A stretch of 64,000 nt of DNA from Cupriavidus oxalaticus (GTDB taxonomy: Bacteria; Pseudomonadota; Gammaproteobacteria; Burkholderiales; Burkholderiaceae). This document shows positions 5,005 through 9,695 of this stretch, piece after piece; the first letter of the stretch is position 1, and every line of letters begins with the position of its first letter. Under the pieces are notes generated by a model that saw only the letters and a list, made by a program, of their open reading frames with translations, had not been told where the DNA came from and did no database searches. A program made the translations under genes and the position numbers. Location of the stretch: contig NZ_CP038634.1 in assembly GCF_004768545.1 (NCBI RefSeq), positions 1,736,001-1,800,000 on the forward strand, written 5' to 3'.

Positions 5005-6000
5005 TCAGTCGACCAGCAGATTGATCTTCGTCGCGAATTTCTGCCAGCGATCGATATCGGAGGTCACCAGCTTCTGGAATTCGGCAGGGGTGCTCGTGGT
5101 CGTGGCAAAGCCGAGCTGCTCCAGCGAAGACCTGACCTCGGGCTTGGAGATGGCCCTGGCGATTTCCGTGTTCAGCTTCTGCACGATTTCGGGCGGCGTG
5201 TTCGCCGGAGCCAGGATGCCGAACCATTGGTCGACGTCATAGCCGGGGATGCCAAGCTCGCTCACGCTTGGCACGTCGGGCAGGAACGGCGAACGTGCCT
5301 TCGAGGTGACGGCCAGCGCGCGCAACCTGTTGCTTTTCAGGTAGGGCATGGTGTTGGTCAGCGTATTGATACTGACATCGGCCTGATTGCCGAGCACGTC
5401 GGCGATGGCGGGTGCACAACCTTTGTACGGCACGTGAAGCATAGCGATCTTTGCCGAGACCTTCAGCAATTCACCGGCCAGATGCTGGGGCGTGCCGTTA
5501 CCGCACGAGGCATAGCTGGGGGGGGAGGCGCTCTTGCCCGTCGCCAGCAAGTCGTTGAAGGTGCGGATCTTCGAGTGCGATGGCACGGCGATCACCGACG
5601 GCACCGAAGCAAAGGTGATGACGGCGCTGAAATCGGACTTCGGGTTGAACTGTAGCTTCTTGAAGACGCTCGGGTTGATGGCAAAACTGCTGTTGACGAT
5701 CAGCAGCGTGCAGCCGTCGGCAGGGCTCTTGGCGACGTACTCGGCGCCGATGTTGCCGCTGGCGCCGGGCCGGTTGTCGACGACTACCTGCTGCCCCAGC
5801 GACTTGCTGATGTCCGCTCCGATCACGCGCGCAAGGGAATCGGTCCCGCCTCCGGCCGGGAACGTCACCACCATGCGGATGGGCTTCTGCGGGAAGGTAC
5901 TGGCGATATTGGCCTCGGCGCGCCCGGGCAGGGTGCCCAGGCTCCCTGCAACAAACAGGAGCGATGCCAGGCTGTTGACGACGGATAGGGGTCTCATCAA
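5005..6000 (-). CDS. Bug/TctC-family periplasmic solute receptor
   Basis: Periplasmic binding protein of the tripartite tricarboxylate transporter (TTT) type, 331 residues. A signal peptide (about residues 1-30, ending near GRAEA) precedes the family motifs KPIRMVVTFPAGGGTDSLAR and the loop NRPGASGNIGAEYVAKS; PYKGCAPAIADVLG is the second ligand loop. The family binds small carboxylates, and at least one Bordetella member is reported to bind nicotinate-type ligands. No TctA/TctB membrane genes are nearby, as is common for Bug receptors in this group. The gene starts 40 bp after the fusion enzyme gene on the same strand, so co-transcription is likely. The coding strand contains a C8 tract (5518-5525) that could slip. 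Confidence 0.88.
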   Translation of the reverse strand: MMRPLSVVNSLASLLFVAGSLGTLPGRAEANIASTFPQKPIRMVVTFPAGGGTDSLARVIGADISKSLGQQVVVDNRPGASGNIGAEYVAKSPADGCTLLIVNSSFAINPSVFKKLQFNPKSDFSAVITFASVPSVIAVPSHSKIRTFNDLLATGKSASPPSYASCGNGTPQHLAGELLKVSAKIAMLHVPYKGCAPAIADVLGNQADVSINTLTNTMPYLKSNRLRALAVTSKARSPFLPDVPSVSELGIPGYDVDQWFGILAPANTPPEIVQKLNTEIARAISKPEVRSSLEQLGFATTTSTPAEFQKLVTSDIDRWQKFATKINLLVD

Positions 6001-6040: not shown

Positions 6041-7846
6041 TCAATCGGAATCTATACGCACTGCCTGATGGCACTCGCCACCAACGCCGACCAGTGCCGA
6101 TGCCGCCTCAAGTGCTGCAGCGGAGTCGGCGTGGATACGGTAGAGAGGTTGCCCTGGCGCCACCTGCGCACCGAGCGTGCACAGCAGGTCGATGCCTGCA
6201 CCCGCAGCGCGCGGTGCCCCGGCGGCGCGCGCCACGCCGGAAATCTGCAAGCCGTCGATGGCCGTCACCTGGCCCCGCGTCGTGGCGGCCACGATCCGTG
6301 TATGCGTACCCGGCGCCACCGGGCGGGAGCGAATACCCTGCGCTGCGGCGATCCGGTCGAATGCGGCCTTTGCCTTGCCTTCGTCCAGCAGCGCAGCCGC
6401 AATGCGCATGCCTTGTTCGGCGCAGCCCACGCGCGGATCGAAGGCGATGATTCCGCCGGCAAAGCGCAGGGCCTTTTCACGCAGGTCCGCGGGAGCCGCG
6501 GGATCGTTGTCGAGCACCAGCCGGACGTCGCGCACTTCCAGCGCGGGGCCGATGCCACGGCCTATCGGGTGGCTGCCGTCCGTGACCAGCGCGCGCACGT
6601 GCAGGCCCAGTCCCTTGCCGACGTGTTCGAACAGTGCGCCAAGCGCCTCGGCGTCGGCGCGCGTCGCCAGCTTGGTCTGCGGCCCGAAGGGCAGGTCGAC
6701 GATGACATGGGTGGCGCCGGCGGTGAACTTCTTCGACAGGATCGACGCCACCGACCAGCGTCGCGAATCGAGGCGCAGGGGCCGGGTGATCGCGTTCATC
6801 ACGTCGTCGATCACGGAATGGTTCAGGCGTCCGTTCCATGCAATGCATGCACGCGCCTGCGCCACGCATCGGCGCACGTCCTCGTGCGTCAGGTCGACCC
6901 GCGCGATGGTTTCCATGGCATCGGCGGTGCCGGCAGCAGATGTGATAGCGCGCGATGACGTCTTGGGCATGGCCAGGCCGTAGGCCGCGACAATCGGCAC
7001 CACGACCAGCGTGATGCGACTGCCGGGAACGCCGCCCATTGAGTGCTTGTCGACGACAAGAGGCTCGTCCCAGTCGATGCGGGGTGTGAAGGCCGTCCGA
7101 GCGCGTGCCAGCGCCACCACTTCGTCATCGGTCAGCGTGAGGGTTGCGGCAATGAGGAAGTCGGTCAGCTCTGCCTCGGTGTACCGCCCGGCGATGGCGT
7201 CTTGCAGCACGGCAACATAGGCAGCTTCGTCGAGCGGCTCGCCGCGCAGCTTGGCCATGAGGTTGGCGCGGCTGGCCGGCTGCCTGGCGGCGGATGTACT
7301 GGTGCCGTTTCGCAGCGCTTCGACAAAGCGTGCCATGCCCGCTTCCAGCGTGCCGTCGTTTGACACCGTGATGCAGGCGACCTCGGGAGGCATCGATACT
7401 CCCGCTCGCGCCACCCGCCTGGCGACCTGGTCGCCCGATTCACGTCCGCGCGCGCTGATGCGCTGTGCCAGCACCTCCTGCGGTGCCGTCACCAGGATGA
7501 CCACGAAGCGCGGCAAGCGGGCGGCAAGGTCGGCGACGACGCCGCGCGAGCCATTGGCTACGACGTTGCGCCCGCGTTCCAGCTCGCGCACCAGCGACAT
7601 GGGCAATCCATAGCGAAGGTCGTGTGCGTCCCAGGTGGCCAGGAACTCGCCCTTTCGCTGGCGCCGTGCGAACTCGGCTTCCGAAACGCCCTCGTGATCC
7701 TCGCCGGCAGACCCGCCCGGGCGCGTGATGACGCGCCGTGCGAAGACATAGTCGTCATCGAGCGAGGCACGCGCACCGTCGATCAAGGAATCCTTGCCAG
7801 CGCCACTGGGCCCTACAACGAGAAAGAATGTGCCGGTTGCCTTCAT
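6041..7846 (-). CDS. Fusion enzyme: PhnN-like ribose-1,5-bisphosphokinase plus AMP/thymidine phosphorylase-like domain
   Basis: A 601-residue fusion. Residues about 5-185 are a guanylate-kinase-like PhnN domain with P-loop [13 protein letters not shown] (K18); PhnN phosphorylates ribose 1,5-bisphosphate to PRPP. Residues about 195-600 are a thymidine-phosphorylase-family domain. Its motifs [15 protein letters not shown] (K267 region) and [15 protein letters not shown] (295-309) match the AMP-phosphorylase branch rather than classical DeoA. AMP phosphorylases convert NMP plus phosphate into base plus ribose 1,5-bisphosphate, exactly the PhnN substrate. The extra N-terminal domain of archaeal AMP phosphorylases is not visible; PhnN occupies its place. 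The start is fixed by the P-loop distance, with no strong ribosome site. The promoter carries paired palindromes shared with nadC. No C-P lyase genes are present. Domain calls are strong; the coupled reaction is inference. Confidence 0.85.
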
Positions 7847-7923: not shown

Positions 7924-8196
7924 GTAATGCAAGCAATGGACCATCCCCCGCAAATCCAGTGTGTACGCGGGATTCGCATGGTCGTAGGGGAAAACACGGG
8001 TCACCGCATGCGCGCTGCCGGTGCCTCATGCATCGGTTGCGCGCATGGTGCACTAATGGAGTGAATACTACATAAAGAGGACCGGAGGCCAGGGGCGCGG
8101 TGCCGGACGCGCGAGCTCGCGAGGCGCTATCATGTGCGCTGTCGCTTGCACCGCATCATGGTGCCGCATGCATACATCTCATTTCCCGTCACAACT
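7924..8196. other. Leader region upstream of the MarR gene
   Basis: This stretch separates the fusion-operon promoter from the MarR start. I see no further copy of the TTNGANNTCNAA operator in it. It contains the perfect palindrome CGCGAGCTCGCG (8110-8121) and a run of possible start codons (GTG 8134, ATG 8158, ATG 8167) in frame with MarR. Confidence 0.5.
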
Positions 8197-8742
8197 ATGG
8201 CCACAAGGAAGCCGGATGCTCCGGTCAAAATCACGCCGCCGGATGAAGCCGATGAAGAACGGCTTGCCCACCTGGTAAAGGACGCTGCGCGCGCCTATAT
8301 CCGGGCGCTGCAACTGCGCCTGGCGGAACATTCGGTTTCGTACGGCCACTGGACCATTCTGCGTATCCTGTGGCGCCATGATGGTCTGTCGCAGCGGGAG
8401 CTGAGCGAACGGGCCGGCGTGACCGAGCCGACCACCTTTGCGGCGGTGAAGGCGCTGGAAGCGCTGGGCTATGTGGAACGCACGCACCTTCCCGGCAACA
8501 AGAAGAAGGTGCACGTGTTCCTGAGCAAGACCGGGCGCGCGTTGCGCCGCAAGCTCGAACCGCTGGCCACCGAGGTCAACGAACTCAGCGTGGAAGGCGT
8601 GAGCGAAGAGGATGTGCTGACTACGCGCCGCGTACTGATTACCATCGCCAAGCGCTTGGTCGCCGACGAAATCGCGTCGGCAGAGAACGGCCGGCGGGTG
8701 CCGTCCACGCAGGAGGTGGGGCGGCTGTTGTCGGACCTGTAG
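8197..8742 (+). CDS. MarR-family transcriptional regulator
   Basis: A 181-residue winged-helix regulator. The DNA-binding part spans roughly residues 49-115: GHWTILRILW, the recognition region LSQRELSERAGVTEPTTFAAVKALEALGYVER, and a basic wing LPGNKKKVHVFLSKTG. Helical flanks before and after it provide the usual MarR dimer interface. It sits between the minus-strand fusion operon and the minus-strand nadC, whose promoters carry identical paired palindromes, so it is the obvious regulator of both. The start is uncertain: in-frame GTG 8134 and ATGs at 8158 and 8167 would add up to 21 residues. Ligand unknown; a pyridine carboxylate or nucleotide-derived compound would fit the context. Confidence 0.88.
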   Translation: MATRKPDAPVKITPPDEADEERLAHLVKDAARAYIRALQLRLAEHSVSYGHWTILRILWRHDGLSQRELSERAGVTEPTTFAAVKALEALGYVERTHLPGNKKKVHVFLSKTGRALRRKLEPLATEVNELSVEGVSEEDVLTTRRVLITIAKRLVADEIASAENGRRVPSTQEVGRLLSDL

Positions 8743-8861: not shown

Positions 8862-9695
8862 TCAGGCGTCGTCCAGTCCAATATCCACGGCCGGTGCCGA
8901 CTGCGTGATCTTGCTCGTCGAGATGTAGTCCACGCCGGTTTCCGCCACGGCCCGGATCGTTTCCAGGCGAATGCCGCCCGAGGCCTCGACCTTGGTCCGG
9001 CCATTGACGACCTGAACGGCCTCTTTCATGTCGGGCACCGACATGTTGTCCAGCATGATCACGTCGACACCGGCGGCCAGGGCCTCGTGCACCTGCTCTA
9101 GCCGGTCGCATTCCACTTCCAGTTTGGTCAGCACCGGCAGCTTGCGGCGCACGCGTTCCACGGCGGCGGCGATGCTGCCGCACACGGAGATGTGGTTGTC
9201 CTTGATCATCACGCCATTGTCCAGGCTCAGTCGGTGGTTCAGGCCGCCGCCGCAGGTCACCGCATGCTTTTCCAGCGCCCGCAGGCCTGGCGTGGTCTTG
9301 CGGCTGTCGATCAGGCGCGCCCTGGTATGCGCAATGGCCTGGGCATAGGTGGCCGTGAGGTTGGCGATGCCGCACAGCCGCTGCATGATGTTCAGCGCGG
9401 TGCGCTCGGCCGTCAGCACGCTGCGCGCATTGCCGCTCACGTTCAGCAGCACCGCCCCTTTGGCGACCTTGTCGCCGTCGGCGACGCGCACGTCGACAGA
9501 CAGCGTGGGATCGTAGCGGGCGAAGATACGTGCCGCCACGTCGATGCCGGCGATGATCATCGGCTCGCGGGCGTTCATGCAGAAGGTGCCGGTCTCGCCG
9601 GGCTCGATCATGGTCTGGACGGTCAAGTCGCAGATGCCGATGTCTTCGGTCAGCCAGAGGTCGATCAGCTTGTCGGTGGCAAAGAGGTCGTACAT
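8862..9695 (-). CDS. nadC: Nicotinate-nucleotide pyrophosphorylase (carboxylating), NadC
   Basis: Quinolinate phosphoribosyltransferase: quinolinate plus PRPP gives nicotinate mononucleotide, CO2 and PPi. The 277-residue length is typical. Active-site motifs are present: TAERTALNIMQRLCGIAN, the quinolinate- and phosphate-binding RKTTPGLR, GGGLNHRLSLDNGVMIKDNH, and the C-terminal LDNMS and EASGGI strands that hold the phosphates. This separates it from the ModD branch of molybdenum loci. No nadA or nadB gene is near, so this is not the de novo NAD operon. Its promoter matches that of the fusion-enzyme operon, implying co-regulation and use of the PRPP that enzyme would make. Confidence 0.92.
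   Translation of the reverse strand: MYDLFATDKLIDLWLTEDIGICDLTVQTMIEPGETGTFCMNAREPMIIAGIDVAARIFARYDPTLSVDVRVADGDKVAKGAVLLNVSGNARSVLTAERTALNIMQRLCGIANLTATYAQAIAHTRARLIDSRKTTPGLRALEKHAVTCGGGLNHRLSLDNGVMIKDNHISVCGSIAAAVERVRRKLPVLTKLEVECDRLEQVHEALAAGVDVIMLDNMSVPDMKEAVQVVNGRTKVEASGGIRLETIRAVAETGVDYISTSKITQSAPAVDIGLDDA

Follow-up and report, generated by a model that had tools for sequence, protein, structure and literature searches.

We analysed a 64,000-nucleotide stretch of the Cupriavidus oxalaticus genome (contig NZ_CP038634.1, positions 1,736,001 to 1,800,000; hereafter the window), in which a gene on the minus strand (6041..7846, ATG at 7846) encodes a 601-residue protein joining a PhnN (ribose 1,5-bisphosphokinase) domain to a type-2, AMP-phosphorylase-like phosphorylase core. 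The coordinates and length given in the initial annotation hold, with the addition that the gene lies on the minus strand; its frame is open over 612 codons, and plus-strand frame 1 of the same stretch contains stops. Forty bases downstream lies a minus-strand gene for a TctC/Bug periplasmic binding protein (5005..6000; Pfam TctC, 223.1 bits). Upstream, also on the minus strand, is the genome's second copy of nadC, encoding quinolinate phosphoribosyltransferase (8862..9695; TIGR00078, 317.7 bits, cut-off 198.4), and between nadC and the fusion gene stands a divergent MarR-family regulator gene (8134..8742, plus strand), found in the same position in 26/26 loci compared within the genus.

Domain architecture of the fusion protein

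The PhnN domain (residues 5-180; 7307..7834, minus strand) scored 180.9 bits with TIGR02322, above the cut-off of 156. Its P-loop, GPSGAGKDS with K18, includes the Walker A motif GPSGAGKD (residues 12-19; 7790..7813, minus strand), which is invariant except at residue 16 (that is, G12-G15 and G17-D19) in 20 aligned fused sequences, the window's included. The phosphorylase core (residues 190-585; 6092..7279, minus strand) was compared with several profile families. With the archaeal-type models, residues 183-585 scored 403.8 bits (TIGR02645) and 350.8 bits (TIGR03327, AMP phosphorylase, cut-off 535), both below the respective cut-offs. The type-2 "thymidine phosphorylase" subfamily NF003338 (PRK04350) was matched with 643 bits, above its cut-off of 434. 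The classical models all remained below theirs (PRK05820, 157.4 bits of 269; TIGR02643, 104.8 of 570.7; TIGR02644, 153.9 of 409.05; PRK06078, 102.2 of 559). In the predicted structure of the fusion protein (mean predicted local distance difference test score 89.0, predicted template modelling score 0.69) the core adopts the AMP phosphorylase fold, and the PhnN half is barely represented in the structural match lists. Thus, profiles and the predicted fold place the C-terminal half closer to enzymes of the AMP phosphorylase type than to classical thymidine phosphorylases. This bears out the domain assignment of the initial annotation, and the grouping with classical nucleoside phosphorylases that it had named as one outcome contrary to its proposal did not appear. 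Of the two sequence signatures that it had attributed to AMP phosphorylase, KHSMGGVPG is not specific (the Thermococcus kodakarensis enzyme has DVHSIGGVPG there), while the second, of 15 residues, is identical in that enzyme.

The N-terminal domain of AMP phosphorylase (~85 residues) is absent from the window protein. Two forms of the fusion exist, one of ~680 residues (PhnN, N-domain and core) and one of ~600 residues lacking the N-domain, the latter being the window's form; at the corresponding site many fused relatives have an insert of 81-93 residues, e.g., in loci L053 (88), L057 (88), and L144 (81). A tree built quickly with FastTree, in which the pair L048/L161 (one locus) counts twice, separates fused from unfused proteins; within the branch of the window's genus both forms are present, L144 and L145 keeping the N-domain. 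Therefore, the N-domain was probably lost more than once among the fusions. At E values of 1e-3 or below at least 4230 homologues were found, fused and unfused together, and the same fusion is present in Cupriavidus, Caballeronia, Pandoraea, Pseudomonas, Bosea, Variovorax and others, so it is not a chance event. The database names for the family are "phosphonate metabolism protein PhnN" or "thymidine phosphorylase". One further sequence, from a metagenome-assembled genome (L066:411-2131), matches the PhnN part over residues 5-115 only, with a called open reading frame of 129 residues; this gene may be interrupted.

Ten positions are each conserved within fused (44 sequences, one genome being included twice as L048/L161) and within unfused (21) phosphorylases but differ between the two groups. 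Among them are R250 (M in the unfused proteins), N338 (G), H343 (L), and N351 (I). N338 and H343, both invariant in the fused set, belong to the fusion-specific motif WNGRLNHS (residues 337-344; 6815..6838, minus strand), together with R340. The archaeal AMP phosphorylase TK0352 of T. kodakarensis (4ga4/4ga5), an enzyme of the nucleoside monophosphate (NMP) shunt, has M, G, L, and I at the four sites in an alignment read by eye; the window protein thus differs from it in these residues, in being fused to PhnN and in lacking the N-terminal domain. The fusion-specific residues would suit a different base, possibly one bearing a carboxyl group.

The genome also encodes an unfused type-2 phosphorylase on contig C3 (520 residues; L007:7358-8920), which belongs to the same NF003338 subfamily (660.3 bits) and likewise falls short of the TIGR03327 cut-off (447.6 of 535 bits). 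Unlike the window protein, this paralogue keeps the N-domain, lacks the NHS motif, and has neither PhnN nor nadC nearby. By eye, its neighbors are universal stress-like proteins, an Fnr-type regulator, and CBS/BON proteins, and no Prs-like gene, which could have pointed to a link between the unfused family and PRPP synthase, was seen beside it in the single 16-kb stretch inspected in this way.

Partnership with a second nadC

The positions of nadC around fused genes were mapped by tblastn in two sets of loci, 35 from named genomes and 40 from a family survey (398 genomes, 87 with a match above the cut-off, from which 40 fused-looking and 20 unfused-looking loci were sampled). Five loci occur in both fused sets (L040=L140, L041=L154, L047=L160, L048=L161, L051=L151), so that the 75 loci comprise 70 distinct ones. 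An upstream nadC on the same strand was found in 34/35 and 40/40 loci, respectively (69/70 distinct). The exception, L068, lies on a contig that begins 127 bases upstream of the fusion and cannot show nadC; in L066 and L070, which are counted, only the end of nadC is visible at the contig edge. L083 and L085 were excluded from the counts, as their contigs end in or just after a PhnN that directly follows nadC. In comparison, nadC was found near none of 20 unfused phosphorylase genes and near none of 43 PhnN-only genes, four of which (L093, L106, L109, L115) have less than 1.3 kb of upstream sequence. The carriers of the pair include Cupriavidus, Caballeronia, Pandoraea, Trinickia, Variovorax, Pseudomonas, Salinicola, Bosea, and Bradyrhizobium, which we take to span the alpha-, beta-, and gammaproteobacteria; one carrier contig of a metagenome-assembled genome is labelled Flavobacteriaceae and may be misbinned. 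The gap between the nadC and fusion matches is 11-52 bases outside the window's genus and ~1 to 2.2 kb in loci of the genus (L040 and 26 of the 40); the greater width there is due to the intervening opposite-strand MarR gene.

The nadC of the window is 78% identical to the fusion-linked nadC of Bosea and 73% to that of Pseudomonas, as opposed to 41.5% to the other nadC of its own genome. The latter lies on contig C2 and adjoins nadA (372.9 bits) and nadB (986 bits, PRK09077). A nadC scoring at least 314 bits is present in 27 of 60 genomes of the genus, all 27 of which carry the fusion, and the next score is 298; this line was set after the gap between 314 and 298 had been seen. The genus has 29 fusion carriers among these 60 genomes (28 confirmed in sequence, G370 from the open frame alone; G002, with a partial and interrupted NF003338 match, was counted as fusion-free), and in the remaining two, G370 and G385, nadC is broken or partial. 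A mirror-tree comparison of nadC and phosphorylase gave a correlation of 0.74 over 41 loci, computed without a null and thus of little weight. On sequence identity, the fusion-linked nadC is a separate, dedicated lineage. In two other stretches (L194, L195; G220:C129, G326:C172), both without the fusion, a MarR gene with 56% identity to that of the window stands next to a nadC of a different lineage (40% identity to the window copy); this may be another cluster connected with quinolinate or NAD.

The genes around the fusion also set it apart from phosphonate operons. PhnI- or PhnM-like genes were found in 0/75 fused loci (70 distinct) versus 34/43 PhnN-only loci. As to the PhnI of the query locus, named by eye, no NCBIfam model matched it at 1e-20. 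Hence, the fused PhnN resembles the phosphonate-operon enzyme in passing TIGR02322 and differs from it in being fused and in its neighbors, and a phosphonate role for this copy was rejected on the 0/75 count, as the initial annotation had anticipated. Its statement that C-P (carbon-phosphorus) lyase genes are absent stands for the neighborhood and is not safe genome-wide: a separate PhnN (210.6 bits) lies near PhnM on contig C2, and the C-P lyase core was not searched for. Nine of the 43 PhnN-only loci (L073, L077, L078, L084, L086, L088, L093, L096, L109) also lack PhnI- and PhnM-like genes in the stretch examined, and PhnN may have other roles there.

Transport and nicotinate-catabolism genes

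The product of the gene at 5005-6000 is a Bug-family protein whose nearest solved relative is Bug27 (2qpq, 348.5 bits; the next relative scored 201.9), and the same order, with a Bug gene after the fusion, recurs in the loci of the genus. Excerpts of a published study (PMC11452294) describe Bug27 and Bug69 as binding quinolinate with submicromolar affinity, and set out the Bordetella nadC-bug69 and Variovorax nadC-phnN-bug27 arrangements. As in the latter, nadC, a gene named phnN and a Bug27 relative are adjacent in the window, and the Variovorax locus L058 has this set. By analogy, the Bug27-like neighbor points to quinolinate. In other lineages a TRAP transporter, an NMT1-type ABC transporter or an MFS gene is found near the fusion. 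Elsewhere in the window, its left end (8-1750) encodes a DmpG/MhpE-type aldolase and what looks by eye like an acetaldehyde dehydrogenase.

Several fused loci contain genes of the aerobic nicotinate (nic) pathway (NicAB, NicC, NicX, NicD, NicF, NicE; regulator BpsR/NicR). In Salinicola, a gene for the 6-hydroxynicotinate 3-monooxygenase NicC (5eow, 577 bits) lies 3.4 kb upstream of nadC, and the Pandoraea and Trinickia loci have NicC relatives together with NicA/NicB-like subunits, so named by analogy (NCBIfam gives Fe-S, molybdopterin, and cytochrome c parts). A gene named in the database as 6-hydroxynicotinate reductase is present in three Bosea loci and in three loci from metagenome-assembled genomes (L065, L066, L067). 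In Bradyrhizobium the gene that immediately follows the fusion (L055:12093-12713) encodes a nicotinamidase, so that nicotinate would be a product common to both enzymes. Moreover, several fused loci have a MarR gene related to BpsR (6pcp/6pco), described in excerpts of PMC6837509 as the 6-hydroxynicotinate-responsive repressor of nic genes. Four members of the window's genus have nadC, MarR, fusion and Bug genes within ~18 kb of nic genes, the nic genes being ~9 kb away; a BpsR-like gene precedes nadC in L189-L191, and for L188 it is visible in L142, from the same genome. Overall, with a match threshold of at least 40% identity and at least 50% coverage, nic-related genes were found in 13/35 and 7/40 fused loci (18/70 distinct) versus 0/20 and 0/43 control loci.

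At the genome level, NicC (above 500 bits, a line set after the score list had been seen) is present in 28/29 fusion carriers of the genus versus 13/31 of the other genomes (Fisher p 3.5e-6, without phylogenetic correction), and the 29th carrier has NicC in two pieces. In the window's genome, contig C2 carries nic genes in one cluster, namely those for NicC (5eow, 560 bits), NicX (7cn3, 405 bits), maleate isomerase (4fq7, 369 bits), a BpsR-like regulator (239 bits), and a protein related to 3ot4 (333 bits), a structure listed as "putative isochorismatase" that we take to be maleamate amidohydrolase.

A putative PRPP-recycling cycle and its alternatives

The chemistries of NadC and PhnN are established for their families. 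From the domains, the fixed partnership with a dedicated nadC, the Bug27-like neighbor and the nic genes we infer, with a probability of roughly two in three, that the fusion combines a nicotinate mononucleotide (NaMN) phosphorylase with a ribose 1,5-bisphosphokinase and would form with NadC a cycle that recycles phosphoribosyl pyrophosphate (PRPP) and decarboxylates quinolinate to nicotinate for catabolism. Quinolinate would be captured by the Bug27-like protein, and NadC would convert it with PRPP to NaMN, CO2, and pyrophosphate. The C-terminal domain of the fusion would then split NaMN by phosphorolysis into nicotinate and ribose 1,5-bisphosphate, and the PhnN domain would use ATP to convert ribose 1,5-bisphosphate to PRPP and ADP, returning PRPP to NadC. 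Nicotinate would enter the nic pathway, encoded on contig C2 here and nearby in some other genomes. The net reaction would be quinolinate + ATP + phosphate to nicotinate + CO2 + pyrophosphate + ADP, with PRPP acting catalytically. By a slightly more cautious estimate, it is also probable that this amounts to a catabolic pathway with PRPP as a catalytic handle, in which NadC phosphoribosylates quinolinate, thereby driving its loss of CO2, and the bifunctional fusion frees nicotinate and rebuilds PRPP at the cost of one ATP. Since the nic pathway itself begins at nicotinate, the nadC-fusion pair would serve as an upstream funnel for quinolinate.

NaMN is the best candidate substrate because the fusion misses the AMP phosphorylase cut-off, has invariant residues of its own, and is coupled to nadC, to a relative of quinolinate binders and to nicotinate catabolism. 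The pyridinium N-glycosidic bond is a high-energy one, so that phosphorolysis of NaMN should be favorable. In addition, PhnN rebuilds PRPP by converting ATP to ADP, which is cheaper than the conversion of ATP to AMP by PRPP synthase.

Several observations weigh against this cycle. The nic queries were drawn from the fused loci themselves, which makes the positive counts circular in part and leaves the control zeros unaffected; no recognised nic gene lies in the stretch examined for 22/35 and 33/40 fused loci; and some positives are weak (NicA at 41% identity in Variovorax L058) or consist of the regulator only (L050, L141-L143, L147). NicC is also present in the 13 fusion-free genomes of the genus counted above, and the nic genes of the window's genome lie on another contig than the fusion. 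Phosphorolysis of NaMN was not found in open-licence PubMed Central papers, nor was a description of the quinolinate route, for which an earlier account in subscription papers, outside that coverage, is possible. Finally, the published interpretation of nadC-phnN-bug27, in the excerpts of PMC11452294, is NAD biosynthesis, and the main text of that paper contains neither "thymidine phosphorylase" nor "catabol".

That interpretation leads to the main rival, the supply of PRPP for the synthesis of nicotinamide adenine dinucleotide (NAD), in which the fusion would make PRPP from AMP, CMP or UMP via ribose 1,5-bisphosphate and the neighboring NadC would use it to form NaMN and then NAD; this sets the chemistry of the initial annotation in the context of NAD salvage. 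Such a role would suit the PhnN chemistry, the AMP-phosphorylase-like core, the nadC partnership, and the printed reading of the Variovorax genes. Yet the genome already has nadA, nadB, and another nadC, so NAD synthesis should not depend on the window set; several lineages have nic catabolic genes on the flanks of the pair, NicC co-occurs with the fusion in the genus, and the AMP phosphorylase score stays below its cut-off. We consider this supply role unlikely. The same evidence bears on the generic NMP-to-PRPP route of the initial annotation: the meeting of the two domain chemistries at ribose 1,5-bisphosphate remains plausible, and the route from NMPs in general is set aside in view of the missed AMP cut-off, the fusion's own invariant residues, and the nadC and nicotinate context. 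NaMN, previously one of five compounds suggested for assay, is now favored. Compared with the archaeal NMP shunt, the partner of the fusion is NadC, and the ribose would return to PRPP and not pass to ribose 1,5-bisphosphate isomerase and RuBisCO.

Less likely still is a recycling of pyridine nucleotides, with the fusion cleaving NaMN or nicotinamide mononucleotide (NMN), from NAD turnover or external NMN, for nicotinate catabolism or salvage, and NadC as an accessory entry for quinolinate. The nicotinamidase that adjoins the fusion in Bradyrhizobium and the nic genes near it in some lineages are consistent with this, but the constant partner is nadC, the Bug27-like neighbor indicates quinolinate, and among the neighbors named there is no NMN deamidase, NUDIX protein or NMN transporter, although no search was aimed at these. 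A C-terminal half of the classical (deoxy)nucleoside phosphorylase kind, attached to a kinase and taking thymidine or uridine as its substrate, is what the automatic name "thymidine phosphorylase" implies; we regard this as very improbable. The NF003338 score well above its cut-off and the lysine of the KHS motif, which AMP phosphorylase lacks, speak for it; it was rejected on the profile and fold scores, although a fold by itself does not decide the substrate.

Quinolinate is a neuroactive pyridine derived from tryptophan. If the proposed cycle is correct, a family named PhnN or "thymidine phosphorylase" would be neither, and it would link quinolinate to nicotinate degradation in alpha-, beta-, and gammaproteobacteria. 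The cycle would add a reaction, the phosphorolysis of NaMN, and provide a defined bacterial source of ribose 1,5-bisphosphate, giving PhnN a physiological role outside phosphonate use. It would also represent the re-use in catabolism of an enzyme of NAD biosynthesis, with its PRPP recycled, and the prediction is both specific and testable.
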